Made by a program: the position numbers and the translations under genes. Positions 4,845-61,203 of a stretch of DNA of 64,000 nucleotides are shown here, in pieces. The notes below the pieces were generated by a model. That model was given only the letters and a program-made list of their open reading frames with translations, made no database searches and was not told the origin of the DNA. The DNA lies in contig NZ_CP020105.1 in the NCBI RefSeq assembly GCF_002067135.1, positions 4,960,001 to 5,024,000 of the forward strand, written 5' to 3'. Position 1 is the stretch's first letter. Each line of letters starts with the position of its first letter. Source of the DNA: Spirosoma rigui (lineage in GTDB: Bacteria > Bacteroidota > Bacteroidia > Cytophagales > Spirosomataceae).

Positions 4845-4860
4845 GCACTACTGCAAACCA

Positions 4861-5097: not shown

Positions 5098-5267
5098 AGT
5101 TGTCTGGTATTTTAGTGATCGGCTAGAACCTGTTTTATAAACGGGCCAGTCCGGAAAATGATTATTAAACATTGGTTAAATCCCGCGTCCCCCATACGCA
5201 GGCAGGGCACAGGCATCAATTGACCCTTTTAAACAGGGCATCGCTGCGGCTGCCGAAAGACCGGCGA

Positions 5268-5720: not shown

Positions 5721-5727
5721 AGTCGTT

Positions 5728-5751
5728 GAGTTATATGTTGCTATATAACTC
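5728..5751. repeat. 9-bp inverted repeat in the leader of the Thr/Ser-rich gene
   Basis: GAGTTATAT 5728-5736 pairs with ATATAACTC 5743-5751 around GTTGCT. It lies 7 bp upstream of the start codon at 5720, so it could form a leader hairpin or be an operator. Confidence 0.4.
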
Positions 5752-10867: not shown

Positions 10868-11016
10868 GTGGCTCCGGATTTCACAGGGGTCACGTATCCT
10901 CACATTCGGGGAGCCGGATAAAACACCTTGCAGCAGGCAGACGTTACCATACACCGGCTACAAAAATCACCCTTCAGTTGGTATTCATATCAGGGTATTC
11001 ATTCTATTGACACCAT

Positions 11017-11454: not shown

Positions 11455-11460
11455 TTAGAC

Positions 11461-11496
11461 CCCGCCCCACTGACGGAAGTTCGTTGGTGGGGCGGG
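11461..11496. repeat. 10-bp perfect hairpin between regulator genes
   Basis: CCCGCCCCAC 11461-11470 pairs with GTGGGGCGGG 11487-11496 over a 16-nt loop. It has no T-run. It begins 7 nt after the stop codon of the upstream regulator, and the first possible start codons of the next gene fall in or beside its right arm. Confidence 0.6.
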
Positions 11497-11522
11497 CTTA
11501 CGAACCCAAACCCCAACGTTAC

Positions 11523-12347
11523 GTGCAGTTTATCAGCCAAATTTTAGAACATCCATCGCTATTAGCCTACTTCTCCGGTGCAAATAATTACACCTGGCTC
11601 CAGTTCCGAAATGGCGACCGGCGGCTGCTGGCCAAGCCACTAACCTATTTTGAAGACCGGTTACCGGAGTTTATCCGTATCCATAAGACGGCACTGATCA
11701 ACCCGGCCTGCGTGGCGAGTGTCCATTACCCCCCCCGCCCCAAAATGCCGGGTACGGTACAAATGCAGGATGGGCAGGTGCTGCCCGTAAGCCGTCGGCG
11801 CTGGAATGAGGTGGCTCAACTACTACAAAATCAGTCGATTGACGCCCCTTCTTCGGACGCCATAGTAATCATGGACAATGGGAAGCAAACGGACGAAAAA
11901 TCCCTTGACGATTCCCGTTATACGTCTCTCCCGCTGATTATTCAGGCGGTGATGACGGGCGACGCGCTGTTGCTTACGCGGGAATGCATCGAATCGGCCA
12001 GGATTTCGTGTGCGCTCAGGCACAGCGAATCGGGCAACGCGCTGGCCAATCTGCTGATCATGCATCCGGCGAAAGAACGGCCCGCCCTGATTCTGCTGGA
12101 TGCCCGCACGAACCGAACCGACCGGATGCTAGCCCTACGATCCCTGAAAGGCCACCCCCGTCTGCGATCTATACCCGTAGTATGGCTGGCCGCACCCGGC
12201 GACGACACCATGCAGGTCTATTCACTGGACGCTAATTCGGTGGTAGTCGTGCCGGATGGAGCCGCATCCTTCTCCCGCATTATTGAACAGCTATGCCGTT
12301 ACTGGTTGCTGACGGTTCAGCTTCCGCCGGAGGTCAACCCTGTATGA
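11523..12347 (+). CDS. LytTR-type DNA-binding protein with a degenerate C-terminal receiver
   Basis: About 274 residues from GTG 11523. The frame contains no early ATG: TTG 11484 and GTG 11487 are also in frame but lie in a hairpin. The N-terminal 95 residues fit a LytTR DNA-binding domain (YFSGANNYTWL, FIRIHKTALINP, LPVSRRRW). The C-terminal about 130 residues follow a receiver pattern, with LILLDARTNR for the phosphoacceptor strand and SIPVVWLAAPG for the next strand. The lysine strand is replaced (SVVVVPDG) and the acidic pocket is missing, so phosphorylation is unlikely. The order LytTR then receiver is the reverse of the usual one. It may act as a phosphorylation-independent regulator, or may be decaying. 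Confidence 0.7.
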   Translation: MQFISQILEHPSLLAYFSGANNYTWLQFRNGDRRLLAKPLTYFEDRLPEFIRIHKTALINPACVASVHYPPRPKMPGTVQMQDGQVLPVSRRRWNEVAQLLQNQSIDAPSSDAIVIMDNGKQTDEKSLDDSRYTSLPLIIQAVMTGDALLLTRECIESARISCALRHSESGNALANLLIMHPAKERPALILLDARTNRTDRMLALRSLKGHPRLRSIPVVWLAAPGDDTMQVYSLDANSVVVVPDGAASFSRIIEQLCRYWLLTVQLPPEVNPV

Positions 12348-12359
12348 TCGGATAACCAC

Positions 12360-12740
12360 TCAGACGACAGGGTCATTCGCTTTAGGAAGCGTTATCGTTC
12401 CCCACCAGCAGAAACGCAGCATTCTGAAGTAGTTGACCCATTCCTCAACCGGCTTGGCCAGATACGAGGCACAGTCCCGATCGAATGCCTCGACGATGCC
12501 GGCGGGGTTATTAGAACCGCGCAACGTAACAACCGGTTCAGGTCCAGCAGAATCAGCCTGGGCAACTCCCACTCTTCTCTTCAGCCACTGTACCGGCAAG
12601 CCCGTGCGGCCTCTTCCGAGGGCAGCACAATCGATTTCACGTCGGGCAAACAGTGCTGAACCGCGTTACTGATCACGACGTTATGATCGGCGTTTTCCCC
12701 ACTAATCAGCCGTTTGGCTTGTCTGAAATTGTCACAATTT
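12360..12740 (-). pseudogene. Remnant of a single-domain response regulator
   Basis: Three frames on the minus strand give consecutive pieces of one receiver domain. Bases 12725-12581 read LISGENADHNVVISNAVQHC up to a TGA. Bases 12559-12536 read RLILLDLN in another frame. Bases about 12535-12360 read VVTLRGSNNPAG, then SYLAKPVEEW to a stop in a third. The segment between the phosphoacceptor aspartate and the VVTL strand is shorter than in intact receivers, so about 20-25 residues are deleted. No start codon remains in frame. The pieces resemble the intact regulator at 11017 (DDGADYRFLVQQ, LILLDLHMPG, CLVKP). The gene is therefore broken by frameshifts and a deletion. Confidence 0.75.
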
Positions 12741-12745
12741 GCCGA

Positions 12746-12994
12746 TTAAATACCTGTGGATCTGGCCATTCAGGTACGAATAAAAAGGGGTGCAACAATT
12801 ATAATATCCAGTCACTATATAGAGAATAAAGCCGTCGATCAATAGCGTGTTTTTTTACTTTCCCGGAATCCGCATCCGTTCCCTCACTCATGGTTATGCT
12901 TACCCTGTATATCCGTTCCGTCCTGTTTCAACGCGAGTCCGGCATCTAATTTGCACCGGTGGGAATAACGACCTTGTACTTCCTACCCGCCACC
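12746..12994. other. Intergenic region upstream of the OmpA-domain gene
   Basis: No gene is seen in these 249 bp. AT-richer sequence around 12780-12840 precedes the promoter candidate at 12925-12953. Confidence 0.5.
12925..12953 (+). promoter_or_regulatory. Possible promoter of the OmpA-domain gene
   Basis: TTTC 12925-12928 and TAATTTG 12947-12953 are separated by 18 bp. The -7-like box is one base shorter than TAnnTTTG. The start codon is 42 bp downstream. Confidence 0.3.
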
Positions 12995-13738
12995 ATGCGT
13001 TTTGCCCTGACGCTTCTATTTCTCCTATTCTTACTGCATCCGGCTTTCGGCCAGAATACACTGTCCAGCAAGCCCACCCGTACTCTTTTTTCCATCCGGG
13101 CTGTCGATGACCGGACATCCGCAGAGTTACCCACGCAGTTTACCATCAACGCCCACCTGGCCAGGAAACGCTTTGCGGGCAAGAGCCAAACCGGCCGGGG
13201 GTTCGATTTTATCCTGACCCGTACTGATACCCTCACCGTAATTGCCAGCGCTCCCGGCTATTACGAAGCCGAAGAGCTTATGGTTGTCTCCTGCGATACC
13301 TGCGCCGACTACCAGTATGTGGTACGACTGGAAAAAGAAGCCCCCAAACCCGCCCGGATCGAAACCGATACGGTGTTCAGAAATCTCGCCGTTAACCAGG
13401 CGTTCCGGCTCGATAACGTATACTTTGATCAAAGCAGCTACGTGCTCCGGCCGGAATCCTACCCACAACTCAACAAGCTGGCTAAAACCCTGCTTACAGT
13501 GCCTAAACTGGTGATTGAGATTGCCGGCCATACCGACAATGTTGGCGACCGGCGACTGAACCAGACATTGTCGGAGAACCGGGCAAAAATCATTCGGGCT
13601 TACCTCATCCGGAGCGGAATCGACGAGCGACGGCTGCAGCACAACGGATATGGCGACACGCATCCGGCCGCCCCGAATGATTCGGAGGAGAACAAACGAA
13701 AGAACCGGCGGGTCGAATTCGTTGTAGTAGCACTGTAG
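12995..13738 (+). CDS. OmpA-family outer-membrane/peptidoglycan-anchoring protein
   Basis: A 247-residue protein with a signal peptide (MRFALTLLFLLFLLHPAFGQ). Residues about 20-120 form a carboxypeptidase-regulatory or PEGA-like beta domain. The C-terminal OmpA domain (about 140-247) has VYFDQSSYVL, IEIAGHTDNVGD, LSENRAKII and NRRVEFVV, the motif set that binds diaminopimelate in peptidoglycan. ATG 12995 is preferred over GTG 12959 because it opens the signal peptide. It is probably periplasmic or outer-membrane associated and stabilises the envelope. Confidence 0.88.
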   Translation: MRFALTLLFLLFLLHPAFGQNTLSSKPTRTLFSIRAVDDRTSAELPTQFTINAHLARKRFAGKSQTGRGFDFILTRTDTLTVIASAPGYYEAEELMVVSCDTCADYQYVVRLEKEAPKPARIETDTVFRNLAVNQAFRLDNVYFDQSSYVLRPESYPQLNKLAKTLLTVPKLVIEIAGHTDNVGDRRLNQTLSENRAKIIRAYLIRSGIDERRLQHNGYGDTHPAAPNDSEENKRKNRRVEFVVVAL

Positions 13739-13812
13739 GTGTACACGCCGGACCGGTACCCGTAGGCTCCCTCCCCGGCGTTGGTGTGCACAACATAAGG
13801 CTAGCTGCATCC

Positions 13813-14574
13813 ATGAGGTATTTCGTTAATCCCCACTCCATCGTTCGTCAGATCTGGGGCGACGCCGATGTCATTTTACTGGTCTTCGCCGGGTCGGCTG
13901 CGGAGTTTGCGCTCAACCGTGCCGTCGACTGGCTGTTTTTTACCGGCAAGCTCCCCGCAGACCCTATCGCCCGGCTGTTTTCTACCGTTCGCTACGCTCA
14001 GGAAATTGTGTTTGCGCCCGAGGAACAGGCTAACAAAGCCATTGCCCGGATGGGCGCTATTCATGCCGGTGTGGAAGGCAAACGGGGGTATCAGATTCCT
14101 GACTGGGCGTACCGTGACGTGCTCTACATGCTTATCGACTACTCCGAACGAGCCTTTGAAACCCTGCACCGGCCCCTGACTCATGCGGAGCGCGACGAGC
14201 TGTTTCGAACCTTCCGGGCCGTGGGCGCTGGTATGCACGTACCCGACCTGCCAACTTCCTATGCCGACTGGAAAATTGACCGCCAGGCCCACCTGGAACG
14301 GGATCTGCTACGGAGCGACTATACCGACAAGCTATTTCGGCGCTACCGGGAGCAACTGGGTGGCTGGCGCTACGCAATCCTGCGGCAGGCGCAGGCTGTA
14401 CTGGTCCCCGGCGAGGTGAGCCAGCGCCTTGATCTGCCCAAAAAGCCCCTGCTCGCTTATTCCATCGGCCTTTACAAAATCCTGAACGGACTTAAGCTCC
14501 GTTCGCTGGTGCAACGTATATTGCTACCGACCGAATATCTGGCGCAAATTCGTAGTTTGGACGTTCGATACTAA
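13813..14574 (+). CDS. MpaB-like oxygenase (DUF2236 family)
   Basis: The 253-residue protein matches the DUF2236 / rubber-oxygenase-like family. It has the N-terminal RYFVNPHSIVRQIWGDAD and LLVFAGSAAEFALNRAVDW, and a later MHVPDLPTSYADW. Members such as latex-clearing protein and MpaB are haem-binding oxygenases, and bacterial ones are mostly uncharacterised. ATG 13813 fits the family N-terminus better than ATG 13786. The gene lies between the OmpA-domain gene and sdaA with no clear operon link. The substrate is unknown. Confidence 0.82.
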   Translation: MRYFVNPHSIVRQIWGDADVILLVFAGSAAEFALNRAVDWLFFTGKLPADPIARLFSTVRYAQEIVFAPEEQANKAIARMGAIHAGVEGKRGYQIPDWAYRDVLYMLIDYSERAFETLHRPLTHAERDELFRTFRAVGAGMHVPDLPTSYADWKIDRQAHLERDLLRSDYTDKLFRRYREQLGGWRYAILRQAQAVLVPGEVSQRLDLPKKPLLAYSIGLYKILNGLKLRSLVQRILLPTEYLAQIRSLDVRY

Positions 14575-14607
14575 GTGGGCTTGTTACCCGCAACCAGCCA
14601 TTTAGCA

Positions 14608-14615
14608 TACCTTTC
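14608..14615 (+). promoter_or_regulatory. Possible -7 box of sdaA
   Basis: TACCTTTC matches seven of eight bases of TAnnTTTG and lies 9 bp before the sdaA start codon. TTG 14581-14583 is 24 bp upstream, longer than usual. Confidence 0.3.
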
Positions 14616-14624
14616 TTCATCAAC

Positions 14625-16007
14625 ATGCCCGCTTCTCCTATTATCACCTCCGTCTTTGACCTGTTCAAGGTTGGGCCGGGGCCGTCGAGTTCACACACGA
14701 TCGGACCCATGAAAGCGGCTTTCGACTTTCGGGAACGGGTGGCCCGCCTACCCGCCGATGTTCAGCAGCCGGCCGATGGTATTCATGTTCATCTCTACGG
14801 CTCGCTCAGCGCTACGGGCAAAGGCCACGGCACCGACCGCGCCGTAGTAGCCGGGCTGCTGGGCTGGCAGCCGGAAACCACCGATCCCGTCGCGCTACTG
14901 GCGCTGCTCCGCGATCCGGCCGTCACTTACCCCGTCCCTGTTGGCAGCCAGACCCTGTTTGTCGGGCCGCAGCACATCCACTTCGAACGCAAGCGATACG
15001 CGTCGCCCTACGCCAACACCATGGTCCTTCGCCTGACTACGGGGGAGCAGGTATGTTACGAAGAAGAGTATTACTCCATTGGGGGTGGATTCATTATCCG
15101 GAAGGGGGAGCCGGAAACCAATCCGGACACCGTTGCCGTTCCCTACCCCTATGCCAGTATGACGGAACTGAAAGCCCAGTTGGCGCAGCACAGCCTCACC
15201 CTCGATACGCTGATGATGACCAACGAGATGGCCATTACCGGCCGTACCCGCGCCGAGGTCAACACCCGCATTGATCAGTTGCTGGAGTTCATGCACAAGG
15301 CCGTTCGGCGGGGGCTTCGGCAAACGGGCGTGTTACCCGGCACGATCAAACTGAGCCGCAAAGCGCCCATCCTGTTCAAACAGGCGAAAGGTATGAGTCA
15401 CACATCGGATAGTTTTCTGCTGTTTCTGAACGCCTACTGTCTGGCCGCTTCCGAAGAAAATGCTGCTGGCGGTATTGTCGTTACGGCCCCTACCTCGGGC
15501 GCGTCGGGCGTAATTCCGGGACTAACGTATCTGGCCAAGCAGCACTTTCACTACGACCGTGCTACGTTGCGGGCAGGCTTGCTGGCCGCAGCCGCCGTTG
15601 GGTTTCTGGTGAAGCATAACGCCAGCATTTCGGGGGCCGAGATGGGCTGTATGGGTGAGATTGGCACGGCATCGGCCATGGGCGCGGCCTTCCTGACGCG
15701 CTGCGCCCAGCCCACCGGCAACATCAATGCGATCGAAGCAGCCGCCGAGATCGGTATCGAGCATCACCTGGGTATGACCTGCGATCCCATTGGTGGTTAC
15801 GTACAGATTCCGTGTATTGAGCGCAATGCCATGGGAGCCATAAAAGCCTACAATGCCTTCCTGCTAGCCACGTCGGGGGCGGCCTCGTTCCAGAAAATTT
15901 CCCTCGACGCCGTCATTAAAGTCATGAAAGCCACCGGCCGTGACATGTCTACCAAGTACAAAGAGACCTCCGAAGCCGGTTTAGCGCTAAGCGCGACAGA
16001 GTGTTAA
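14625..16007 (+). CDS. sdaA: L-serine ammonia-lyase (L-serine dehydratase), single chain
   Basis: This 460-residue enzyme converts L-serine to pyruvate and ammonia using a [4Fe-4S] cluster. The N-terminal regulatory domain begins SVFDLFKVGPGPSSSHTIGP, a near-invariant motif. The catalytic domain has SHTSDSF, APTSGASGVIPG and NASISGAEMGCMGEIGTA. GMTCDPIGGYVQIPCIERN supplies further cluster cysteines. The length equals single-polypeptide SdaA/SdaB of proteobacteria, not the split alpha/beta form. It stands alone and is followed by a strong hairpin. A role in serine catabolism feeding pyruvate is expected. Confidence 0.96.
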   Translation: MPASPIITSVFDLFKVGPGPSSSHTIGPMKAAFDFRERVARLPADVQQPADGIHVHLYGSLSATGKGHGTDRAVVAGLLGWQPETTDPVALLALLRDPAVTYPVPVGSQTLFVGPQHIHFERKRYASPYANTMVLRLTTGEQVCYEEEYYSIGGGFIIRKGEPETNPDTVAVPYPYASMTELKAQLAQHSLTLDTLMMTNEMAITGRTRAEVNTRIDQLLEFMHKAVRRGLRQTGVLPGTIKLSRKAPILFKQAKGMSHTSDSFLLFLNAYCLAASEENAAGGIVVTAPTSGASGVIPGLTYLAKQHFHYDRATLRAGLLAAAAVGFLVKHNASISGAEMGCMGEIGTASAMGAAFLTRCAQPTGNINAIEAAAEIGIEHHLGMTCDPIGGYVQIPCIERNAMGAIKAYNAFLLATSGAASFQKISLDAVIKVMKATGRDMSTKYKETSEAGLALSATEC

Positions 16008-16013
16008 CTTTTC

Positions 16014-16073
16014 AGGGAGGGAGGGAGAACGGGGCTGGCATCAGCCATACCCCGTTCTCCCTCCCTCCCTTTT
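16014..16073 (+). terminator. 21-bp perfect terminator hairpin after sdaA
   Basis: Arms 16014-16034 and 16050-16070 are perfectly complementary, purine-rich on the left. The 15-nt loop has its own TGGC-ATCA-GCCA mini-stem. T4 follows (16070-16073). It begins 7 nt after the stop codon. Confidence 0.85.
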
Positions 16074-16193
16074 CTTACTCCTTCGTCTCTTCCCGCCCCC
16101 TCCTGCCTCCCTTTCAAACATTTCCCGTCTTGTGAGGTATTTATGACGTAGTGTTTATACTCAACACAGTAGTTGATTAATTTTTTTGGACGA

Positions 16194-17261
16194 ATGGCAA
16201 CAATTTACACACCGAAGCAACAGCGGGTCCTGCTCATTACGAGCCTGATCATTATTGCAGGCTTCATCATCGCCGGGCTGCGTGGCTACGCGTCGGCTTT
16301 TCTGGGTGCGGGTATTCTTTACGTTATTTTCAAGCCCTGGTTTACGGCCCTGGTGCATAAGCACAACTGGAACCGAACGCTGGTAACCACCCTGCTGATC
16401 ATTTTCGCGTTTGTGGTTATCATCCTGCCGTTCCTGACGCTGAGTCTGATGCTTGCCGGCCGCATCCAGTATTACAGCCAGCATACCGACGACATCCTGG
16501 ATCTGATCAAAAAAGCCGAAGATCTGACCGGCTTCAAGATTACCAGCCCACAAAACATCCGCTCCATTACCCAGCAGGGAGCCAGCTACGCCAGCCGCCT
16601 GCTCCCATCGCTGGCGGGTGGTGCGCTTGATTTCATCGTGATCATCGGCCTGATGTTCTTCACGTTCTATTTCATGTTCGTGCAGCAGGAAGCGTTTCAG
16701 GACGGGCTGAAAAAATACCTGCCGTTCAAACGCGACACCCAGCGGGAACTGGGCGAATCGCTGAAAAACAACGTCAACGCCAACGTATTGGGACAGGCGC
16801 TGGTGAGCTTTGTACAGGGGTTGCTCACTGGCCTTACGTTGTGGATTTTCGGGGTGCCGGATGCGCCTTTCTGGGGTACGGTTGCCTTTTTTATGGCGTT
16901 CATTCCCGTGCTCGGAACGCCCCTGGTGTGGGGACCCGCCGGCCTGATTCAGCTCTCGCAGGGCAACACCGGACAGGGTGCCGGCATATTAATTGTCGGG
17001 ATCGTCGTCATCATCAACATCGATAACCTGCTCCGCATTGCCCTCGCCAAACGCATGGGTGATATTCACCCACTGGTAACGCTGGCCGGAATTGTGCTCG
17101 GTGTTCCCATCTTCGGCATCCTGGGGCTCGTGATCGGGCCGCTACTGCTCTCCTACTTCATTGTACTGATCCAGGTTTTCGAACGCGAAAACCGCAAACA
17201 GGAGCAGGAAGTAGCCATTGAGAAAGCCAAAGTCGAGGAACGAGCGGAAAAAGAGGTCTAA
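16194..17261 (+). CDS. AI-2E family transporter (TqsA/PerM-like permease)
   Basis: A 355-residue integral membrane protein of the AI-2E transporter family. Paired helices lie at about 15-60 and 65-95. A soluble loop runs from about 100 to 145. The conserved membrane core includes FIPVLGTPLVWGPAG and a glycine-rich C-terminal part (GVPIFGILGLVIGPLLL). The C-terminal tail is charged (ENRKQEQEVAIEKAKVEE). Known members export AI-2 or act as Na+/H+ antiporters, and the substrate cannot be read here. ATG 16194 is chosen; the frame extends to a TTG at 16173. Confidence 0.88.
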   Translation: MATIYTPKQQRVLLITSLIIIAGFIIAGLRGYASAFLGAGILYVIFKPWFTALVHKHNWNRTLVTTLLIIFAFVVIILPFLTLSLMLAGRIQYYSQHTDDILDLIKKAEDLTGFKITSPQNIRSITQQGASYASRLLPSLAGGALDFIVIIGLMFFTFYFMFVQQEAFQDGLKKYLPFKRDTQRELGESLKNNVNANVLGQALVSFVQGLLTGLTLWIFGVPDAPFWGTVAFFMAFIPVLGTPLVWGPAGLIQLSQGNTGQGAGILIVGIVVIINIDNLLRIALAKRMGDIHPLVTLAGIVLGVPIFGILGLVIGPLLLSYFIVLIQVFERENRKQEQEVAIEKAKVEERAEKEV

Positions 17262-17262
17262 A

Positions 17263-17352
17263 AAAGAAAAGTGCGAAGGAAAAAAAGGCCAAAGGGGAGG
17301 CTGGCGTATGCTGCTCTCCCCTTTGGCCTTTTTTTCCTTCGCACTTTTCTTT
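17263..17352. terminator. 37-bp perfect inverted repeat between convergent genes
   Basis: Arms 17263-17299 and 17316-17352 are perfectly complementary with a 16-nt loop. The left arm starts one base after the stop of the AI-2E gene and the right arm runs into the stop codon of the PspC gene (17351-17353). A7/T7 blocks inside the arms can give U-tracts to a shorter inner stem in either direction. It is therefore read as a bidirectional terminator, far longer than needed. Confidence 0.8.
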
Positions 17353-19891
17353 ATTGTCTGGTTACTTTGCTGGCGCCGGAGGTTTCGGAGTCGAGCGTAC
17401 CTACCTGACCAAGATTGGCATGGCTGGCTCCGCTGGCGTCAACTCCTGCTTTATCGACAGACAGGCTGGTGGCTTCTATTTTGCTGGCCCCGCTGAGGTC
17501 GGCATCCAATTGATCGGCATGACCGCGCAGAATGGCGTTTGACGCCCCTGATAGTCCAACGGTCAGTTTCTTCACCTGACCGTCGAACACCGTCCGGCAG
17601 GCACCGCTCATGTCGATGTTCAGGTTGTCGAAGGTACCAAACCCGGCCAGGCTCGCTTTCGAAGCCCCCGATAGTTTCAGGTCGTTGATGGCAGGAACGG
17701 TGATCGTCAGGCCAATGCGTTTGCGGTTGCTCCAGTCGAACAACCCGTTGCGCTCCATCGACACTTCCAGCGTATTGCCGTCCACGTCGACTTTCACATC
17801 GTCCAGGTCTTTCTCCCGACCATCGGCCACTACTTTGTACGTTTCGCCCTTCCGGAAGCGGACCACAAACGCGCCTGATACGTCTACTTTTGAGAAATTG
17901 CCGACCGTGAACTGGCGGGTATGATCGCCCATCTCATCAAAATCCTCGCCCAGTTCGCTCGCAACGGCGCTTTGTACGTCGTCTGTGAGATCCGTCACGT
18001 CATTGTCGCGGTCATAATCGCGATCTTTTTCGCGGGGGAAGTTGATGCACACCAGCCCATCGTTGGCCGTAAATTTCCAGATACTGGCCGTCATACGGTC
18101 GATCTCTTTTTCGCCGAACTCATTCCGGATATGGCGGGCAAAGGAGGGCGTCATACGGAACGGTTTTTCGTAGGGAATCTTCAGGTACATCTCCATGTCC
18201 TGCATTCGAAAGCGAGCTTTGGGCATCAACTCGATGCTGTTATCGAAGCGGATCACCGAATCCTGCTGCACGAACCGGTACTTGATGGTGCGGGCATTGG
18301 CCTGGGCGTCAGCCCGGTTCCGGCCCTGCGCTTCAAATTTCTGTTCCAGGTTGATATCGACACCTTCGTAGCCCTGTAGTTCAATATCAGTCCCTTTATC
18401 GTAGTCACTGTTGATATCGACCAGATCGAAGGTTGGAGTACCCGTTACCCGTATCACTTTCGTCTCTTCGACTACCCCCTTCCGCTGGAAACTGTTGATA
18501 AGGGGCGACGCCGTACCGGCGAAGACAACCATACTAACCAGCCATACACCCGCTGCGGTCAGCGCCATGCGGCTGCTGATGACATTGCGGGTCGTGATGA
18601 GCATGACCCCCAGAATAGCCAGCCCGAAGGCCGGAATGATCCCCGTCAAGAAAGCGGATACGATCATAGGCAGCGTAATATCTGCCCGGAGCAGGTTAAC
18701 CGCTACGTCACCGTCGCCGAAGTGCATGCCCGATTCCAGACCGATGGCAGCGCCCAGCATGGCCAGACAAGCAATCATGAAAGCAAACGCCACCACCAGC
18801 ATCAGGATACCGGCAAACACCCGGATTATCGAGACGACACCGTTCAGCAAGGGACCCAGCGCACTACCCAGACCACCAATGATGGTGGCAATGGCCCGGA
18901 AGGGAAATAGCAGGATACGGGTCAGGCTACTTTCGTTATTGGGCGACTCGTTGATGTTCAGGTTCTGCTTGATGCTGCTCTCGATGTTTGAAAGCGTAAT
19001 GGGCCGACCCTGCATTTCCATTTTCTCGGTGAGTGTATTGGCCGCGGGGGCAATCATCCACAGCACAATATACAGCAGAAAACCAACGCCGAAGAACACA
19101 ATACCCAGCACAAACAGCAGCCGGACAACCCCCGTGTCGATGCCAAAATAAGCCGCAATACCCGACGCTACGCCACCCAGTACTTTGTCTTCAGGATTCC
19201 GGAAGAACTTCTTGATCGTTTTATCTTCCTCAATAGTCCCTACACCGGGCAGGGCAATCCACATGGCAATGTAGGTGATAACCGTGAAGCCACTGAGGCC
19301 ACCGAAGAAATCGCCCGAGTTACCATGCGAAGCTCCTACCAGCGCAGGCAGTCCCACCACCAGGGCCACGAAGATCAACCGTACCCAGACAACGTCCATG
19401 TTGAAATAGTGGGCCAGACCGGCGGCAACACCACCCAGCGTTTTCCGGCGCAAATCCCGCACAAGCCGACGGGGCGTTACTGCCGCACCGGTGTTGCCCG
19501 GCTGCGCTGATCCGTAGGTACCGGTTGCTGCGCCGGGGCCCGTAGGCTGACCACCGGGTCGGGTGTTACCGTTGCCCGTTGCCGAGTTACGGCCTCCACT
19601 CGTTACCAGTACTTCTTCCTCTTCGACGGCTTCAAAATCGGCAACGGTACCCATGGCGGCTACCAGTTCGTTGACATCCTCGAGCGAAACAGCCTGCCGG
19701 TCGGCAGATTTGAGTTTGGCAAGGAGTTTTTCGGCGATCCGGTTCTCGATGTCGGTTACAATCTCCTGACTGTCTTCATAGGTCGAGAAGTACTGCTGAA
19801 CGCTTGTCAGGTAGTTTTTTAATTTATCGTAGCCGTCTTCCTCAATGTGGAAAATGACCCCACTGATGTTGATGCTGATTGTCTTTTTCAT
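17351..19891 (-). CDS. PspC-domain membrane protein with C-terminal DUF2807 adhesin-like domain
   Basis: The protein has 846 residues. The N-terminus (about 1-95) is a conserved cytosolic domain starting MKKTISINISGVIFHIEEDG. Two PspC modules follow (about 140-205, KTLGGVAAGLAHYFNMD; about 228-290, KVLGGVASGIAAYFGID). Several membrane segments span about 325-475. The C-terminal half ends in a DUF2807 / GIN beta-helix (about 660-846) with repeated SGAS turns. PspC proteins sense membrane stress with the phage-shock system; DUF2807 domains are probably extracytoplasmic. It is downstream of, and 25 bp from, the padR gene, so the two form an operon. The 3' end is inside the 37-bp inverted repeat. 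Confidence 0.88.
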   Translation of the reverse strand: MKKTISINISGVIFHIEEDGYDKLKNYLTSVQQYFSTYEDSQEIVTDIENRIAEKLLAKLKSADRQAVSLEDVNELVAAMGTVADFEAVEEEEVLVTSGGRNSATGNGNTRPGGQPTGPGAATGTYGSAQPGNTGAAVTPRRLVRDLRRKTLGGVAAGLAHYFNMDVVWVRLIFVALVVGLPALVGASHGNSGDFFGGLSGFTVITYIAMWIALPGVGTIEEDKTIKKFFRNPEDKVLGGVASGIAAYFGIDTGVVRLLFVLGIVFFGVGFLLYIVLWMIAPAANTLTEKMEMQGRPITLSNIESSIKQNLNINESPNNESSLTRILLFPFRAIATIIGGLGSALGPLLNGVVSIIRVFAGILMLVVAFAFMIACLAMLGAAIGLESGMHFGDGDVAVNLLRADITLPMIVSAFLTGIIPAFGLAILGVMLITTRNVISSRMALTAAGVWLVSMVVFAGTASPLINSFQRKGVVEETKVIRVTGTPTFDLVDINSDYDKGTDIELQGYEGVDINLEQKFEAQGRNRADAQANARTIKYRFVQQDSVIRFDNSIELMPKARFRMQDMEMYLKIPYEKPFRMTPSFARHIRNEFGEKEIDRMTASIWKFTANDGLVCINFPREKDRDYDRDNDVTDLTDDVQSAVASELGEDFDEMGDHTRQFTVGNFSKVDVSGAFVVRFRKGETYKVVADGREKDLDDVKVDVDGNTLEVSMERNGLFDWSNRKRIGLTITVPAINDLKLSGASKASLAGFGTFDNLNIDMSGACRTVFDGQVKKLTVGLSGASNAILRGHADQLDADLSGASKIEATSLSVDKAGVDASGASHANLGQVGTLDSETSGASKVTRQ

Positions 19892-54209: not shown

Positions 54210-57200
54210 TTATTTGGCACTTACGGGCGTACTGGCCTTCACAACTTTCATGACGCCATTCATAATGCGCCAGTGACCGGGGAAGGTACACACGAACGGA
54301 TAATCGCCGGGCGTAGCGGGTGCTGTGAACGTTAGCCGATACGTCTGATCCGGATTGACCAGCGGAGTAGCGGCAATAACCTGAGGAATCGAGGGGACGT
54401 ACCCTTTATCAGCACCATCCTTGGCGGTGATCAGTTTGTCGGCAGCCGCGCCGATAACGTCCATCGTCTTGGGTTTGCCAATAACCAGGTTATGCTGCAT
54501 GGCATCGGGATTGCTCAGAACGATCTGCACCGATTTGCCGGCGGTAACGGTGAATTCTTTTTTATCGTATCGCATCTCTTCCCGCACCGTTTTCAGCTGC
54601 ACCACTTCCACGTTGGGATCAACGGGTTGCTCACTCACCAGCCCCCAGGCTTCATAGAGTCGGTTCAGGCGCTCACGGTTGTCGGCCGATACGGAACCCG
54701 TCAGGCTGGCCAGGAAGGTTTTGTCGGCCTGGCTCAGGGTCGGCTTCTGTTTCAGATTCCACCCTTCCGATACGCCTTTCACGATGGCGGCACTCTGGGC
54801 TGCATCCATGTTCTTCGACTGCCGCAGCAAGGCTACCACCGAGTCGGCGGGCGCAACGGATGCGTAGCTCCGGATTGCCCGTTCCAGCACGTAAGCACTC
54901 ATGCTTTGCGGAGCACGGTACGTGAGCTTGTGCGTCTTGTTATTGTTCTGCTCGTTGGATTCAGCGATCTTATTGTCACGGTCCAGCATAGCGGTTATGG
55001 TATACTCACCAGCCCGCTCGAAGTTAACGTTGAAATCGGTGCTCCACGGGCCGTTGTTTCCCTTGCTGATCGTAACCGTTTCCCCGGGTTTGATACCCGT
55101 GTTGTGGGCCACACTAACGTAATCAAGCTTGGCCCGGTCCGATACGTTGTTCGGACCTTCGATCCGGACGCTGAGCGGAATGGGTGTTCCAGCCGGGATA
55201 GCCTCGCCACCGGCGTTCGTAACGTCGATGTAGATACGGGCTCCTTCCCGAACGGCGGGTGACTCCGGCGTTGTGCGGATGGCGGCAATCAGCAGATCGG
55301 GCTGGGTACCGGCGGTTACCACCACCGCTGGTTTAGCGGCCTGGCTCGTGGGTGTCTGGGCCGGGTAAGCAGCAGGCTGGGGCTCGGCCGGGTTAGGGCC
55401 ACCCTTACCCGTTTTCGAGGGTTTGTGTTTGCTCATGTCATGGGGCTCCTGGCCGGTGTTCTGACCGGGAGCCGGTGCCATCGATACCTTCTTCATGTAG
55501 GCTTTCATCAGCTGTCCGTCCTGACCAGCCAGGGCACAGGCAAACGCTTCCGGCAACCAGCGGTCGTTGACTTCCGTACCCTGTGCGGCACCCGTTTCTG
55601 CCAGCCGGCTCAGGATAGCCTGCTGAATGGCTGCGCTCTGGGGCATCTCGGAGAATGCCAGCAACGTGTTCATAACAACCAGCGGCTCTTTATCGGCGAG
55701 CATGTTAGCCTGCAGCAGCATATCGGCCGATTGCTGATTGCGGGTCAGCACCTGCACTACCGTTTTGCGAACGTGCGCATCGGGATGGCGTAGTGAAGCC
55801 TGCAATACGGGCATCACCGTTGGGTCGGTCAGCGCGTTCAGTCCCTCGATTACCCGTAGGGCATGAATGGCCGCCGGATTGATTCCCAGTTTGTCGGGAG
55901 TGGTGTTATTCACCAGTTGCAGCAGCTGCGGGATCACGTCTTTGTTGCCCCGCTCAACGAGTAACCGGTGCGCGGTCATGCGCCAGAACATGTTGTCGTT
56001 TTTAAGCGCGGCTACCAGCTCAGTCGGCCGGTCTTTGCTCAGTGCCATCGGCGTATAGGCCGGCGCTTTGCTGTAGCCAACGCGGTAGATACGACCGTGG
56101 GTAAAATCACGCAGGGGCGTATCGTAGGCGTTACCCGATCCGTTGGTAGCTCCCGCCGGCGTTGGGTTGTGCTGAATGATGAAGCTGTACCAGTCAACGA
56201 CCCAGACGGCGCCATCCGGTCCTACTTCAGCAAAAACGGGTGCAAACCATTCATCGGCTCCCGCCATCAGGTTGAAACCCGTTCCCATGGCTTCAGTATC
56301 TTCGTAGTCGGTTCCTTTCTTCTGCATCAGGTTCTGGTGCACAATGTGACCCGTAGGTTCGGACACAAAAGCGATCTTGTTCCAGTAAGCAGACGGGAAC
56401 GCGCGGGCGGTGTAGAAGTTATGCCCGGCAGCGGCCGTGAAGCCCCCGAAGACATCGACCTGCCGAACGCGCTCGGTAATGGGCTTCATGTCTTTGTGCG
56501 TATCGGTGCCGCGGCTACCGTTCTCGCGCAGGTGAGCGCCCCCGTGAAAGTAGCGGTTCGGAATGGCCAGGTACCAGCCGTGGGAGTTGTTGGCGGTGCT
56601 GCCAAACACATCCCCCGTTTCGTTGAAAGCCATTCCCCAGGTGTTGTTGGAGGTGTTGGTCACATGCTCCAGCTTGGAACCGTCCATCTTGAACCGGAAA
56701 AAGCCCTGCCCGAACTTCACGCTGTCGGCACCGACTTTGCCTTTGAAACCCGAATACCCGACGCTACCCCAGATCCAGTTATCGAACCCGTAGTGCAGGT
56801 TGCTGGGACCGGCGTGGGTATCGTAGGTCCCGAAACCGGTAAAGACAATTTTCTTGACATCAGCCTTGTCATCGCCGTTGGTATCCTGCAGGAACAGCAT
56901 GTGCGGGGCCTGCGATACGTACAGTCCACCGTTGGCGAAGACCATACCCGTTGGGATGCTCAGTCCTTCGGCAAAGTTGGTGAACTTGTCGGCCTTACCG
57001 TCGTTGTTGGTGTCTTCGCAGATCACGATGTAATCCGAGCCACCTTCGGGCTTCCGCTCGTTTGGATAATCTTTCGTGATGAGCGCGTATAGGCGACCCC
57101 GTTCGTCCCAGGCCATAGCGATGGGGTGCATCACGTTGGGTTCATGGGCGAACAGATCGAGGGTGAAATCGACGGGTACCTGGATGTGCTTGATCGACTC

Positions 57201-58079
57201 CTCGGGTGAGAGTGGCTCCTGCTGAAGTTGCGCACCGGGGCGTTTTTCGTAGTTAGGCAGGTTGGCTTCGTGGTAGGCAAACGGCTGCGGATTCAGCGCG
57301 TCATGCTTTTTCTTCACGTCGTCGCCCACGGCCCACAGGATACCGCGTTCCAGTAGCTGCTGAAAGCCGGGCTGGCTCCAGGTCCGCTCGTCGTGGCCGT
57401 AGGCGGTGTAGAATACCCGTCCCTTACCGTACTGGCGGGTCCAGGTATAAGGCTCTTCCTTAACGCCCGGCTTGTCGGTAGCCTGATCGGCTTTGATGTC
57501 CCGTACCGCCAGCACGTTGTTATCGGCCTGCAGGTGCGAGTGCAGGTAGGTTTCGTCGTACGCCTTGAACGAAGGAAGCCCGGCCGTCAGGGGGTTGTTA
57601 GGCTGCGTGAACCGCGTCTGAATGGTATCCATCCGGTGCCGCCAGAATTGCCCGCCCACGACTTTATCGACGTACTCGGGTGAGTTGCGGAAGCAGTACG
57701 ACGCACAGTGTACCGGAATGATACCTTTCCCCGACGCTACGTAGTCGAGCAGCGCTTTTTCCTGCGGCTTGGGAATGCTGTCCCAGTTGGCAAAAATCAG
57801 CAGCCCGTCATACTTATTGAGGTTCTCGGGATTGAGATCCTCCAGTTTGTCGGTGTAGGTGATGTTGATTCCCTTGTTGCCGAGGGCAGCCATCAGTTGC
57901 GGCACCCGTTCAGCGGGTTTATGATGGCCGTTGTCGCCCAGGAACAGGATTTCAGTCCGTCGGCCGTTGCCCGCCCCCGGCTTACTTACCTGCGATGACA
58001 TGTCGCGCGGGCTCTGGGCCGGTTGGCGGGCGCATTGGGTGAGCAGGCCCACCAAGGCGAGTAATACGATCCTTTTCAT
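54210..58079 (-). CDS. ThuA / PVC-type propeller / HEAT / CARDB / azurin fusion lipoprotein
   Basis: A 1289-residue lipoprotein (lipobox LLTQC). Domains in order: ThuA-like fold (about 40-260, with VHCASYCF); PVC-type propeller (about 300-680; VDFTLDLFAHEP, MAWDERGRLYALI, CEDTNNDGKADKF); HEAT-like helical repeats (about 690-860); and a Pro-rich linker. A CARDB domain follows (about 935-1050), then a C-terminal cupredoxin (about 1155-1289). Type 1 copper ligands are His1196 (MQHNLVIG), Cys1264, His1269 and Met1273 (CTFPGHWRIM), an azurin signature. Related PVC-type proteins usually end in a haem CxxCH domain, and no CxxCH is present here. The first gene products of this unit (isomerase, Gfo/Idh) suggest glycoside metabolism. 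Confidence 0.85.
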   Translation of the reverse strand: MKRIVLLALVGLLTQCARQPAQSPRDMSSQVSKPGAGNGRRTEILFLGDNGHHKPAERVPQLMAALGNKGINITYTDKLEDLNPENLNKYDGLLIFANWDSIPKPQEKALLDYVASGKGIIPVHCASYCFRNSPEYVDKVVGGQFWRHRMDTIQTRFTQPNNPLTAGLPSFKAYDETYLHSHLQADNNVLAVRDIKADQATDKPGVKEEPYTWTRQYGKGRVFYTAYGHDERTWSQPGFQQLLERGILWAVGDDVKKKHDALNPQPFAYHEANLPNYEKRPGAQLQQEPLSPEESIKHIQVPVDFTLDLFAHEPNVMHPIAMAWDERGRLYALITKDYPNERKPEGGSDYIVICEDTNNDGKADKFTNFAEGLSIPTGMVFANGGLYVSQAPHMLFLQDTNGDDKADVKKIVFTGFGTYDTHAGPSNLHYGFDNWIWGSVGYSGFKGKVGADSVKFGQGFFRFKMDGSKLEHVTNTSNNTWGMAFNETGDVFGSTANNSHGWYLAIPNRYFHGGAHLRENGSRGTDTHKDMKPITERVRQVDVFGGFTAAAGHNFYTARAFPSAYWNKIAFVSEPTGHIVHQNLMQKKGTDYEDTEAMGTGFNLMAGADEWFAPVFAEVGPDGAVWVVDWYSFIIQHNPTPAGATNGSGNAYDTPLRDFTHGRIYRVGYSKAPAYTPMALSKDRPTELVAALKNDNMFWRMTAHRLLVERGNKDVIPQLLQLVNNTTPDKLGINPAAIHALRVIEGLNALTDPTVMPVLQASLRHPDAHVRKTVVQVLTRNQQSADMLLQANMLADKEPLVVMNTLLAFSEMPQSAAIQQAILSRLAETGAAQGTEVNDRWLPEAFACALAGQDGQLMKAYMKKVSMAPAPGQNTGQEPHDMSKHKPSKTGKGGPNPAEPQPAAYPAQTPTSQAAKPAVVVTAGTQPDLLIAAIRTTPESPAVREGARIYIDVTNAGGEAIPAGTPIPLSVRIEGPNNVSDRAKLDYVSVAHNTGIKPGETVTISKGNNGPWSTDFNVNFERAGEYTITAMLDRDNKIAESNEQNNNKTHKLTYRAPQSMSAYVLERAIRSYASVAPADSVVALLRQSKNMDAAQSAAIVKGVSEGWNLKQKPTLSQADKTFLASLTGSVSADNRERLNRLYEAWGLVSEQPVDPNVEVVQLKTVREEMRYDKKEFTVTAGKSVQIVLSNPDAMQHNLVIGKPKTMDVIGAAADKLITAKDGADKGYVPSIPQVIAATPLVNPDQTYRLTFTAPATPGDYPFVCTFPGHWRIMNGVMKVVKASTPVSAK

Positions 58080-58081
58080 AC

Positions 58082-59197
58082 TTATTCGGCTTTAAAATCA
58101 GGCAACTTCATAATTTCTCCCCCCCGCAGGGCCGACTCGTGGGCCAGGATACCCACACTCGTCCAGTTCGCCGATTGAGCCGCATTCGGGAAGGGATCAC
58201 GGTCTTCGACAATAGCACTCACAAATTCGTGAACCATGTGCGGGTGGGAGCCACCGTGGCCGCCCCCCTGCGTAAAGGACAAGTGTTGCTGCTCATCGGC
58301 ATCATACACACCTTTGGTCGTGAACCGCTGAATAGGCTCGGGCAGGTAGTGCGCGTAGTCAGGCACGGTCACTTTCTCCGGGATTTCCGGCTCCGGCTTC
58401 TTGGCGGTGTGAATTACCGGCTGCTCATCTTCGATTAACTGCCACTCGAACGACTTCTTGTCGCCATACACCTCGAAACTCTCGCGGTACTGCCGCGCTA
58501 CGTCGAACAGCGACCGGTATACGAGGGCCGACAGGTCACTGTTCTTGAACTTGATATGAGCCGACTCAACGGCGAACGGCGAATTATGAATTGACGCCAG
58601 TTCTTCCCGGATCGTACCCGATCCGAAGCACGAGACATAGTCGGCTTCAAGTTTGAGCAGCCCTGCCACCGGTCCAACGCAGTGGGTGGCGTAGTGCATG
58701 GGAGGCAAACCCGGCCAGTAGTCCGGCCATCCATCCATGTCCTGCTGGTGAGACGCTTTCAGAAACTGAACTTTCCCCAGCTCGCCGGTTTCATATAACT
58801 CCTTGACGAACAGAAACTCGCGGCTGTAAACTACCGTTTCCATCATCATGTATTTCTTACCGCTCTCCCGGCAGGCCTGCACAATTGCCTGACACTCGGC
58901 AACGGTCGTTGCCATCGGTACGGTACAAGCAACGTGCTTACCCGCCCGCAGCGCTTTCAGGCTCTGCTCGGCATGGTTGGGAATGGGGGAGTTGATATGA
59001 ACAGCGTCAACGGCCGGATCTTCCAGCAGTTCGTCGTAGCTGGTGTAGCGCTTCTCGATACCATAGGCGTCACCGATCTGGTTCAGTTTTTCGGCATTGC
59101 GCTGGCAGATGGCATACATATTGGCATCGGGATGCCGCTGGTAGATCGGGATGAATTCAGCCCCGAATCCGAGGCCGACGATAGCGATATTAATCAT
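58082..59197 (-). CDS. Gfo/Idh/MocA family oxidoreductase
   Basis: The 371-residue protein has an N-terminal Rossmann fold (INIAIVGLGFGAEF), the conserved HINSPIPNHAEQSLKALRAGKHVACTVPM segment in place of the usual E-K-P, and METVVYSREFLFVK. A GFO/IDH/MocA C-terminal domain follows. The Lys of the typical EKP motif appears replaced (CTVPM), so catalysis should be checked. It stops 2 bp before the ThuA-fusion gene starts, which shows one operon. Such enzymes oxidise sugars or inositols with NAD(P). Confidence 0.88.
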   Translation of the reverse strand: MINIAIVGLGFGAEFIPIYQRHPDANMYAICQRNAEKLNQIGDAYGIEKRYTSYDELLEDPAVDAVHINSPIPNHAEQSLKALRAGKHVACTVPMATTVAECQAIVQACRESGKKYMMMETVVYSREFLFVKELYETGELGKVQFLKASHQQDMDGWPDYWPGLPPMHYATHCVGPVAGLLKLEADYVSCFGSGTIREELASIHNSPFAVESAHIKFKNSDLSALVYRSLFDVARQYRESFEVYGDKKSFEWQLIEDEQPVIHTAKKPEPEIPEKVTVPDYAHYLPEPIQRFTTKGVYDADEQQHLSFTQGGGHGGSHPHMVHEFVSAIVEDRDPFPNAAQSANWTSVGILAHESALRGGEIMKLPDFKAE

Positions 59198-59236: not shown

Positions 59237-60109
59237 TCAGGCACCTACCCGAAGGCTGAGGCTCTGTTTAATAAAGTCGAGTCCTTCCACGGCCAGCCGC
59301 TCGGGCGACTCGAACATGGGCCGGAATATATGGGTGGCCGCTGCCAGCGAGGGAGGGTTCAGGCCAAAGGCTTCGATTGCAATTGGTCCCGTATACCCTG
59401 CGTCAGCCAGCGCGTCGAACACTTCGGTAAAATTGATATGGCCGCTGCCGGGGGTGGAGCGGTCGTTCTCCGAAATCTGCACATGTACCAGATAGGGCGC
59501 TACGGTCTGGATGGCTTTACTAATGCTTTTTTCTTCCATGTTGGCATGGAACGTATCAAAAGCAGCGCGGCAGTTGGGATGATCAACCGCTTCGACGTAG
59601 CGAACCAGTTCATCGGCGCAGGTGAGCAGGTAGATCTCGAACCGGTTCAGGTATTCGATGGCCAACGTAACGCCTTGTGTCTGGGCATGTTGGGCCACTT
59701 CCCGCATCGCTTCCACCGACCAGTCCCATTCCTGCTGCGTAGCGGGCTTACCGGTAAAGGCTTTGAATCCCGCGAAGATGGGGCCCATTAATATGGAGGA
59801 GCCCACGGCAGCCGAGCAGTCGACTACGTGCTTCAGATACTCAATACCCGCCCGGCGAATAGTGTCGTCGGGGCTGATCAGGCTGTATTCCGGACCACAG
59901 ATCGTGCAGGTCTGAACACCCAGGTCCAGTGCGCGCAGTTGCTGCCCGATGCGCTCCCATTTAGCCAGGTTAGCCCGATTGGTGTTTGGCTCATTGATGG
60001 GTATTTCAACGAAGTCGAACCCGCTTGATTTCAGGAACGACAGCGTATCAGACATGTCTTCTTCCATGTCCGTTGTCCAGACGAACAGGTTCATTCCCAG
60101 CTTAGTCAT
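59237..60109 (-). CDS. Sugar phosphate isomerase/epimerase (TIM barrel)
   Basis: A 290-residue AP endonuclease 2-like TIM barrel: KLGMNLFVWTTDMEEDM, FDFVEIPINEPN, VTLAIEYLNRFEIYL, NCRAAFDTFHANMEE, VHVQISENDRSTPGSG and YTGPIAIEAFGL. The Glu, Asp, His and Glu residues that bind the divalent metal in xylose isomerase-like epimerases are visible. It most resembles D-psicose/tagatose 3-epimerase-type enzymes, but the sugar is unknown. ATG 60109 is used; the frame extends to TTG 60178 across the -7 box. It is first in an operon with Gfo/Idh and the fusion lipoprotein. Confidence 0.9.
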   Translation of the reverse strand: MTKLGMNLFVWTTDMEEDMSDTLSFLKSSGFDFVEIPINEPNTNRANLAKWERIGQQLRALDLGVQTCTICGPEYSLISPDDTIRRAGIEYLKHVVDCSAAVGSSILMGPIFAGFKAFTGKPATQQEWDWSVEAMREVAQHAQTQGVTLAIEYLNRFEIYLLTCADELVRYVEAVDHPNCRAAFDTFHANMEEKSISKAIQTVAPYLVHVQISENDRSTPGSGHINFTEVFDALADAGYTGPIAIEAFGLNPPSLAAATHIFRPMFESPERLAVEGLDFIKQSLSLRVGA

Positions 60110-60131
60110 ACTTAGTCCATAAAAAATTAAA

Positions 60132-60139
60132 CAAAAATA
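60132..60139 (-). promoter_or_regulatory. -7 box of the isomerase operon
   Basis: TATTTTTG on the minus strand is an exact match 22 bp before the ATG at 60109. No clear -33 box is seen. Confidence 0.45.
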
Positions 60140-60187
60140 AAGAGTAGTCAAGTTAATTATACGGCTTTTCTTGGTCAATACTGACTT

Positions 60188-60243: not shown

Positions 60244-61203
60244 ATGAAGCAACCCCTCCGTAAAGACCTTGAGCCGGTGGCGGCATCGTTTATCGTAAAG
60301 GAGTTGATAGAGCCCCATTTTGACCCGAACTGGCACTTCCACCCGCACTACCAGCTCTTCCTGGTTGTGGAGGGCACGGGTACCCGGTTTATCGGCGACT
60401 CCATAAAACCATTTGGACCGGGTGATCTGGTATTTCTGGGGCCTAATTTACCCCATCTCTGGCGTAGTGATCAGGCTTATTTTGCTAAATCGGATAAACT
60501 GACGAACCCACCCGACGAGTCACCGTCGGCTAGCCCGCCCCTGGTGGCCCGGGGTATTGTGGTTTATTTTTCGGAGAATTTTTTAGGCGAAGCGTTCTTT
60601 GCCAAGCAGGAGATGATGGCGCTGCGCCACCTGCTCGAACTGGCCCGGCAAGGGCTGGAATGGACAGGGACTATCCGCGATCAGGCCGAAGCCAGCTTGA
60701 AAAAAATGGCTGGCCAGCCCGTTGGATTTGGTCGTATTCTCAGCCTGCTGAACCTGCTCAACGATCTTTCGAACACCTCTTCGTTCCGGCTTCTGACCAG
60801 CCCTGGTTATACCAACACCATGAAGGCGGCTGACACCGACGAACCGGGAAGCACCACCACCGAACGACCGGAACGCGCTTATCGCCGGATGCAGTTAGTG
60901 CACGATTATGTCCTGAGTCACTTCACCGACGACCTCAGCCTGGATACGGTCGCCGATCTGGCCGGGATGACAGCCCCTGCCTTCTGTCGTTATTTTAAAG
61001 CGCATGCCAACAAAACGTTTTCCTGCTTCGTATCAGAAGTACGTATTGGTCATGCCTGTAAACTGCTGATGAACGGTTCATTGAGCATTACCCAGATCAG
61101 TTTTGACAGTGGCTTTCGCACGCTTTCCAATTTTAACCGGCAGTTCAAGGAGATTACGGGGCAGACTCCCTCAAAATATGTAAAAACATACCGGCACCTT
61201 TGA
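60244..61203 (+). CDS. AraC-family transcriptional regulator
   Basis: The 319-residue protein has an N-terminal cupin sensor (about 15-110; HFHPHYQLFLVVEGTGTRFIG, GDLVFLGPNLPHLW). The C-terminal HTH_18 domain is at about 215-319 (LSLDTVADLAGMTAPAFCRYFKAHANKTF and ITQISFDSGFRTLSNFNRQFKEITGQTPSKY). It is divergent from the isomerase/Gfo/fusion operon with a 134-bp spacer, so it probably controls that operon in response to a sugar-like ligand. The insert between sensor and HTH is longer than usual (about 110 residues). Confidence 0.92.
   Translation: MKQPLRKDLEPVAASFIVKELIEPHFDPNWHFHPHYQLFLVVEGTGTRFIGDSIKPFGPGDLVFLGPNLPHLWRSDQAYFAKSDKLTNPPDESPSASPPLVARGIVVYFSENFLGEAFFAKQEMMALRHLLELARQGLEWTGTIRDQAEASLKKMAGQPVGFGRILSLLNLLNDLSNTSSFRLLTSPGYTNTMKAADTDEPGSTTTERPERAYRRMQLVHDYVLSHFTDDLSLDTVADLAGMTAPAFCRYFKAHANKTFSCFVSEVRIGHACKLLMNGSLSITQISFDSGFRTLSNFNRQFKEITGQTPSKYVKTYRHL

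Follow-up and report, generated by a model that had tools for sequence, protein, structure and literature searches.

The window analysed here, a 64,000-nucleotide stretch of Spirosoma rigui DNA (contig NZ_CP020105.1, positions 4,960,001 to 5,024,000), encodes an exported protein of 1289 residues that joins a ThuA domain, a PVC-type beta-propeller (DUF7133/TIGR02604), HEAT repeats, a CARDB domain and a type 1 copper domain in one chain; as the original prediction had it, all of these parts are present, with Pfam or NCBIfam scores above cut-off. We propose that this protein is a substrate-oxidising or redox-assisted sugar enzyme that gives its electrons to the tethered copper domain, a job that would be open to cytochrome c as well, and we put the probability of this reading at a little under 0.6. 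What makes it plausible, above all, is that two unrelated one-electron carriers interchange on such propellers and are never found together in our sample, and that one of the two recurs as a separate gene.

Among 126 sampled propellers, 60 carry the haem motif CxxCH, 55 carry a cupredoxin, 11 carry neither and none carries both, where CxxCH was accepted anywhere in the open reading frame (ORF), a cupredoxin was scored by a copper hidden Markov model (above 50 bits) or by motif, and Pfam confirmation was obtained for selected rows only. When ThuA lies in the same ORF (59 proteins), copper is found in 53, haem in one and neither in five; without ThuA (67 proteins), haem is found in 59, copper in two and neither in six. 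These 126 are the tree rows retained from 202 propeller matches; omitted were 65 of the 80 contig-derived orthologue loci, spans shorter than 330 residues or below 150 bits, and the cut locus L278. The matches came from a family sample (matches at E ≤ 1e-100 in 134 of 150 genomes, with the best four candidates per genome scored), a phylum sample (296 genomes, 36 with a match at E ≤ 1e-40, with the best six candidates per genome scored), the S. rigui genome itself, and orthologues and paralogues from the family. Scoring was confined to these best four or six candidates and the row lists are capped, so that the sample does not cover every propeller.

Exchange and splitting of the electron carrier

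A maximum-likelihood repeat on 60 rows with a mixture model, which ran without the long-branch warning that FastTree gave for the 126-row tree, places the ThuA proteins, together with one ThuA-less copper protein (L220), in a clade of 33 (100/100). The haem label changes four times on this tree and likewise four times over the 5–95% range of 200 bootstrap trees, none of which shows a single change; these counts are independent of the root and by themselves do not separate gain from loss. The ThuA-propeller clade with its copper domain spans several Bacteroidota families and is usually found near a Gfo/Idh/MocA gene. Copper is the usual state in the clade of the 1289-residue protein, and therefore no local loss of haem took place. 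A haem domain lost by this very protein was considered and rejected, the trees placing it within the copper clade. The idea of a cupredoxin in the haem domain's place thus held as regards the shared slot and a true exchange, and failed as regards haem loss here; the two carrier types do interchange, copper being the normal one in the ThuA clade.

The exchange is seen in L249_15849, a protein of 966 residues with Pfam matches to ThuA, DUF7133, HEAT_2 and Cytochrom_C. It shares 72.6% identity with the copper protein L251 over residues 7–860; beyond them, one continues as a cytochrome c and the other as a cupredoxin. The two proteins pair in the tree (100/94), and in the group of four to which they belong (100/100) all members but L249 carry copper, as do all five of the nearest other relatives of L249 (69–73% identical; 92 genomes of its family searched). 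The L249 gene is internal to a 65-kb contig, and overlapping stretches of the same assembly show it to be open and uninterrupted. A second, more distant exchange involves L025 of the S. rigui genome, which bears an N-terminal cupredoxin on its propeller; its sisters in the tree, L267 and L269, are of the haem type (100/99).

The copper domain also occurs apart from the propeller. Seven ThuA-clade propellers have no fused carrier, and in five of them a separate Copper-bind gene stands downstream on the same strand, at a distance of 144 (L199), 1185 (L202), 49 (L205), 45 (L206) or 47 nucleotides (L307). All five of these genes score 105–109 bits against the same copper profile and lie above the Pfam cut-off. 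Four proteins (L224, L252, L253 and L255) show the order propeller-copper-ThuA. With copper fused at the end, fused mid-protein or encoded separately, the copper domain therefore accompanies the propeller in most such cases.

Within the 1289-residue protein, all four predicted copper ligands (His1196, Cys1264, His1269 and Met1273) are in place, and CxxCH, the haem motif of the TIGR02604 family, occurs nowhere in the chain. Among 110 ORFs, a set that includes this protein and counts some species twice (two collections), none has CxxCH, and the Cys/His/Met motif, as CTFPGHW..M or a near variant of it, is present in 109; the only one without this motif, L139, is truncated near residue 935 of the query. 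A chance match to the motif was rejected, as Pfam, a PDB sequence search and this ORF set agree. The closest solved relatives of the domain are 6kol, a type 1 copper domain protein that we take to be the auracyanin of Roseiflexus, and auracyanin A (2aan). Auracyanins and azurin have the same His-Cys-His-Met ligand set, but unlike them the domain here is fused, and it scores 43.9 bits against the azurin equivalog TIGR02695, under the cut-off of 105.1.

These relationships bear on whether the cupredoxin could serve copper handling, that is, sensing, storage or resistance, and have been fused by happenstance to a sugar-utilisation protein. A role of this kind would fit the NCBIfam match to CopI, a copper-resistance cuproprotein, but that match is very weak (17.2 bits; cut-off 280). 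We regard copper handling as highly improbable in view of the full electron-transfer ligand set, the auracyanin among the closest solved relatives, the sugar-metabolism neighbourhood in nearly all testable orthologue loci and the swap in L249, where cytochrome c would not substitute for such a function.

Propeller fold, pocket and candidate chemistry

An AlphaFold2 model of residues 281–676 has a mean predicted local distance difference test score (pLDDT) of 93. In structural comparison with Foldseek and VIA-align, ranks 1–16 are entries for sugar dehydrogenases that use pyrroloquinoline quinone (PQQ) or belong to AA12 (Z 24.4–28.4), and the next 34 rows are lactonases and other propellers (Z 22.3–24.0). 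The nearest solved folds are thus those of the soluble PQQ sugar dehydrogenases/AA12 (PF07995; 3a9g, 2ism, 3das, 1cq1 and 6h7t), and, like them, the modelled propeller is probably six-bladed. An hhalign comparison with the PF07995 proteins of the S. rigui genome gives an E value of 4e-11.

Six residues, H422, N478, N479, T548, D609 and W611, are invariant across 25 of 25 copper ThuA rows, three classified carrier-less ThuA rows and L249, in an alignment of 73 rows of which three have no class and stand outside the class counts. These residues lie just ahead of a strand in four blades and, by analogy of fold, would line the pocket. Their identity in L249 means that the active-site fingerprint outlasts the carrier swap; residues at pocket positions are invariant across the clade sample and kept in its haem-swapped member.

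A number of observations weigh against an electron-donating propeller. L249, with its cytochrome, stands as one gene in a single assembly of some 140 contigs. L163 and L218 are the other two of the seven ThuA-clade propellers that have no fused carrier. L163 has lost its copper domain and ends after CARDB; its 15-kb locus yielded no cupredoxin, and in it a 119-residue ORF with CxxCH lies about 2 kb off on the other strand; nor was a cupredoxin found in the locus of L218, in which the propeller ORF is broken by an in-frame stop and ThuA is in a separate ORF. L241, L242 and L243 have no carrier of any kind in their loci, so carriers are not obligatory. In the fold comparison, rank 17 is a lactonase whose Z of 24.0 ties with the lowest dehydrogenases, and PF07995 gives no match to the 1289-residue protein at E values up to 1. 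The pocket itself also seems to depart from the PQQ pattern. The Arg-Asn pair reads N478-N479, N478 being invariant in the 25 copper ThuA rows, and the last-blade arginine is replaced by Ser, Ala or Gly at position 613 in all 25, whereas the haem-type rows have Arg at 613 in 34 of 36, and at 478 in 17 of 36. We take positions 478 and 613 to correspond to the PQQ-holding R228 and R408 of soluble glucose dehydrogenase, a correspondence drawn from motif and profile alignment rather than from structure, with hhalign itself not pairing 613 with that arginine. H422, the candidate for the catalytic histidine (H144 in the glucose dehydrogenase), is invariant in the 25 copper ThuA rows but one column off in hhalign. 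A search for PqqC found nothing; the control likewise gave no match. Because the two likely PQQ-anchor positions, arginine in the dehydrogenases, are Asn478 and Ser/Ala/Gly613 here, PQQ is doubtful in the ThuA clade.

The strongest point on this side is the hydrolysis of lactose by a relative, together with the carrier-less DUF7133 proteins. Lac161_ORF7, from a clone assigned to Chthoniobacter and annotated with TIGR02604, HEAT_2 and Cytochrom_C, is reported to have hydrolysed lactose in vitro with a Km of 1.8 mM (PMC5342196), which is the single biochemical report that we found on TIGR02604/DUF7133 relatives. The propeller might then be a non-redox or internally redox-neutral glycoside-cleaving enzyme, with a carrier that is stabilising, targeting or accessory and with ThuA, the Gfo/Idh protein and the epimerase processing the released sugar. 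The lactose hydrolysis, the seemingly missing PQQ anchors and the carrier-less DUF7133 proteins would all follow from such an enzyme, but it leaves two facts unexplained, namely that two unrelated one-electron carriers swap in one slot, with no protein of the sample having both, and that five of the seven proteins lacking a fused carrier have a separate cupredoxin gene; we consider it unlikely. A redox-assisted glycosidase would reconcile lactose hydrolysis with the carrier swaps, although this is speculation. Of the propeller dehydrogenase originally predicted, the nearest fold speaks in favour, and the PQQ arginines, the missing PF07995 match and the lactose-hydrolysing TIGR02604 relative speak against; we regard such an activity as plausible though not proven.

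Which way the electrons flow cannot be read from anatomy alone. Copper nitrite reductases, as described in PMC7201279, have cores tethered to a cytochrome (RpNiR, PhNiR) or to a cupredoxin (TsNiR, HdNiR), and the 1289-residue protein follows the same principle of a built-in partner with an unrelated core, namely propeller and ThuA. By comparison with these enzymes, copper reduced by the respiratory chain might supply a reduction or a redox-assisted reaction at the propeller or ThuA site. We judge this improbable, as the nearest folds are oxidising sugar dehydrogenases and the operon resembles sugar catabolism.

Operon neighbours and the proposed route of electrons

The gene for the 1289-residue protein is preceded by genes for a Gfo/Idh/MocA protein and a xylose-isomerase-like epimerase, with an AraC-type regulator gene on the opposite strand (Table 1), and this arrangement of operon and regulator, part of the original prediction, recurs in orthologue loci. 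Sixty-five such loci have at least 4.5 kb of upstream sequence and were counted, 20 of the 85 being too short. In 64 of the 65, a same-strand Gfo/Idh gene stands upstream, no more than 150 nucleotides away in 51; a relative of the epimerase gene is present in 51, a divergent AraC gene in 48, and all three neighbours in 43. The epimerase and Gfo/Idh proteins of the operon have no signal peptide. The epimerase ORF as listed (59237–60178) begins with TTG at 60178; translation more probably starts from the ATG at 60109.

The usual catalytic lysine motif of Gfo/Idh/MocA proteins, EKP, is replaced by CTVP (residues 91–94) in 93 of 93 aligned close Gfo/Idh rows, among which the neighbour of the 1289-residue protein is counted twice. 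A classical lysine-dependent dehydrogenase is therefore unlikely for the Gfo/Idh protein.

We propose that the propeller, perhaps with ThuA, would work on a periplasmic sugar or glycoside, removing electrons from it. The copper domain, joined through HEAT, CARDB and a flexible linker, would accept these electrons, as the anatomy, the exchange with cytochrome c and the split genes suggest. It may then pass them to the respiratory chain, for which a cluster resembling alternative complex III (ACIII) and an oxidase is encoded, and the product would be handled by the epimerase and Gfo/Idh proteins of the operon. The ACIII-like cluster (L294, G000:C1:1646000-1664000, positions 3908–18001) comprises genes for a multihaem CxxCH protein, a 1037-residue protein, NrfD and mono-CxxCH proteins, followed by oxidase-like genes; only the NrfD protein was assigned by family search, the others by order and motifs. 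It is a possible electron sink for periplasmic carriers.

Periplasmic 3-keto-sugar pathways of Caulobacter and Bacteroidetes, which, as described in PMC9007349, combine dehydrogenase, proposed hydrolase and epimerase/reductase genes, would by analogy be a reasonable frame for the operon, though no proof of its function.

DUF7133 propellers are numerous in each of the nine relatives examined and are named for a haem motif, and the biochemistry that we found on a relative is confined to one report. A copper-wired clade with one natural copper-to-haem swap and several splits offers a clean test of whether these propellers are redox enzymes, in which bleaching, removal or exchange of the carrier would leave the propeller as it is. 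The same clade would also place the ThuA domain and the lysine-less Gfo/Idh partner in a pathway that can be tested.

Copper-bind domains across genomes and layout of the protein

In the S. rigui genome, five of five places with a Copper-bind domain are in or beside a DUF7133-like propeller: the 1289-residue protein, L033 (692 residues), L032 (731 residues), L025 (955 residues, with the domain at the N-terminus) and the gene pair L031, in which a gene for a 358-residue cupredoxin adjoins one for a 492-residue propeller. L032 and L033 score 25.5 and 15.8 bits against Pfam DUF7133 (cut-off 27), and their propellers were recognised by our own profile, among whose source rows are some of the weak cases themselves (L032 and L033). 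In nine relatives, chosen by hand from the family sample mainly because their assemblies have few contigs, 26 of 30 Copper-bind places go with a DUF7133-like propeller, 22 in the same ORF, five of them (L324, L330, L334, L339 and L343) by our own propeller profile alone, and four in an adjoining gene. The other four places are three stand-alone azurin-like genes and one weak match. The same nine genomes have 6 to 19 DUF7133 propellers each.

A broader but tentative reading, to which we give less than even odds, is that in Spirosomataceae and related Bacteroidota the main role of type 1 copper domains is to be the dedicated acceptors built into a large class of exported sugar enzymes with propellers. 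These would come in at least four architectures, namely ThuA-propeller-HEAT-CARDB-copper, propeller-copper of about 660–730 residues, a copper gene with a propeller gene, and N-terminal copper-propeller-HEAT. The type of carrier would then be a module open to swapping, with an evolution independent of that of the active site, and the ThuA clade would use a cofactor or chemistry other than PQQ, feeding the lysine-less Gfo/Idh protein.

L025:7345-10212, L333, L338, L340, L341, L344 and L346 form a conserved family of 940–975 residues with an N-terminal cupredoxin (C[TS]VPGHR.AGM) before the DUF7133 propeller. L031:4953-7511, L332, L336, L337 and L342 are a conserved pair of a 356–384-residue cupredoxin protein and a separate DUF7133-like propeller gene (about 490–585 residues).

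Several known systems resemble the 1289-residue protein in part. The PVC-type CxxCH proteins (TIGR02604/PF23500 DUF7133, including Lac161_ORF7) have the same propeller, HEAT repeats and C-terminal one-electron carrier, whereas our protein has a type 1 copper carrier, ThuA in front, no CxxCH, and Ser, Ala or Gly at 613 where haem-type rows mostly have Arg. It differs from the PQQ sugar dehydrogenases in matching no PF07995 model and in not keeping the two likely PQQ-anchoring arginine positions. Two proteins of the S. rigui genome, L021:3684-7196 and L022:4594-8046, also unite ThuA, a propeller and a one-electron carrier (ThuA-GSDH-PKD-cytochrome c-CBM6), but their propeller is of the PF07995 type and retains the HxGG and RN motifs, and their carrier is haem rather than copper. 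In the literature searched (titles and abstracts, with subscription journals mostly uncovered), no description of copper-tethered DUF7133 or ThuA-propeller proteins was found. The tethered-carrier principle is already known from the copper nitrite reductases.

The layout of the protein and its neighbourhood is given in Table 1. TIGR02604, the NCBIfam model for PVC-type haem-binding CxxCH proteins, matches residues 303–669 with 235.4 bits (cut-off 122.2), and 39 residues of the ThuA domain are common to at least 95% of 122 aligned domains. In an AlphaFold2 model of residues 281–1289 (pLDDT 84.6; predicted template modelling score 0.80), the HEAT region and the copper domain are well defined, with the HEAT helices mostly at pLDDT 90–98, and the stretch between HEAT and CARDB (residues 872–922) is disordered. 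The protein was first called a lipoprotein, and of this the signal peptide stands; the lipobox is doubtful, LTQC being non-canonical and several orthologues (Emticicia and others) having a signal peptide with no lipobox cysteine.

Table 1. Features of the 1289-residue protein and its operon (positions within the window)
Feature	Position	Strand	Basis
Exported multi-domain protein, 1289 residues (ORF)	54210..58079	-	Translation, Pfam, NCBIfam
Signal peptide with non-canonical lipobox LTQC; lipoprotein status uncertain	58032..58079	-	Sequence, orthologue N-termini
ThuA, residues 48-249	57333..57938	-	PF06283, 140.9 bits, cut-off 33.4
DUF7133/TIGR02604 beta-propeller, residues 290-668	56076..57212	-	Pfam DUF7133, 403 bits, cut-off 27
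HEAT-type helical repeats, residues ~685-867	55479..56027	-	HEAT_2, three stretches, best 738-797
Linker, low-confidence, probably flexible, residues 872-922	55314..55466	-	pLDDT <50 (model residues 592-642)
CARDB, residues 925-1048	54936..55307	-	PF07705, 38.4 bits, cut-off 22.7
Type 1 copper domain, auracyanin/azurin-like, residues 1160-1278	54246..54602	-	PF00127, 43.4 bits, cut-off 21.2
Copper ligand His1196	54492..54494	-	Motif and spacing
Copper ligand Cys1264	54288..54290	-	Motif and spacing
Copper ligand His1269	54273..54275	-	Motif and spacing
Copper ligand Met1273	54261..54263	-	Motif and spacing
Gfo/Idh/MocA protein, C91-TVP in place of EKP	58082..59197	-	PF01408
Xylose-isomerase-like TIM-barrel epimerase/isomerase	59237..60109	-	PF01261; closest NCBIfam D-psicose 3-epimerase, below cut-off
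AraC-type regulator with cupin domain, divergent	60244..61203	+	PF12833, PF07883

The closest named relative of the protein is that of S. utsteinense (86% identical). A longer version of 1465 residues, L213:3082-7479, has about 290 additional residues ahead of ThuA.

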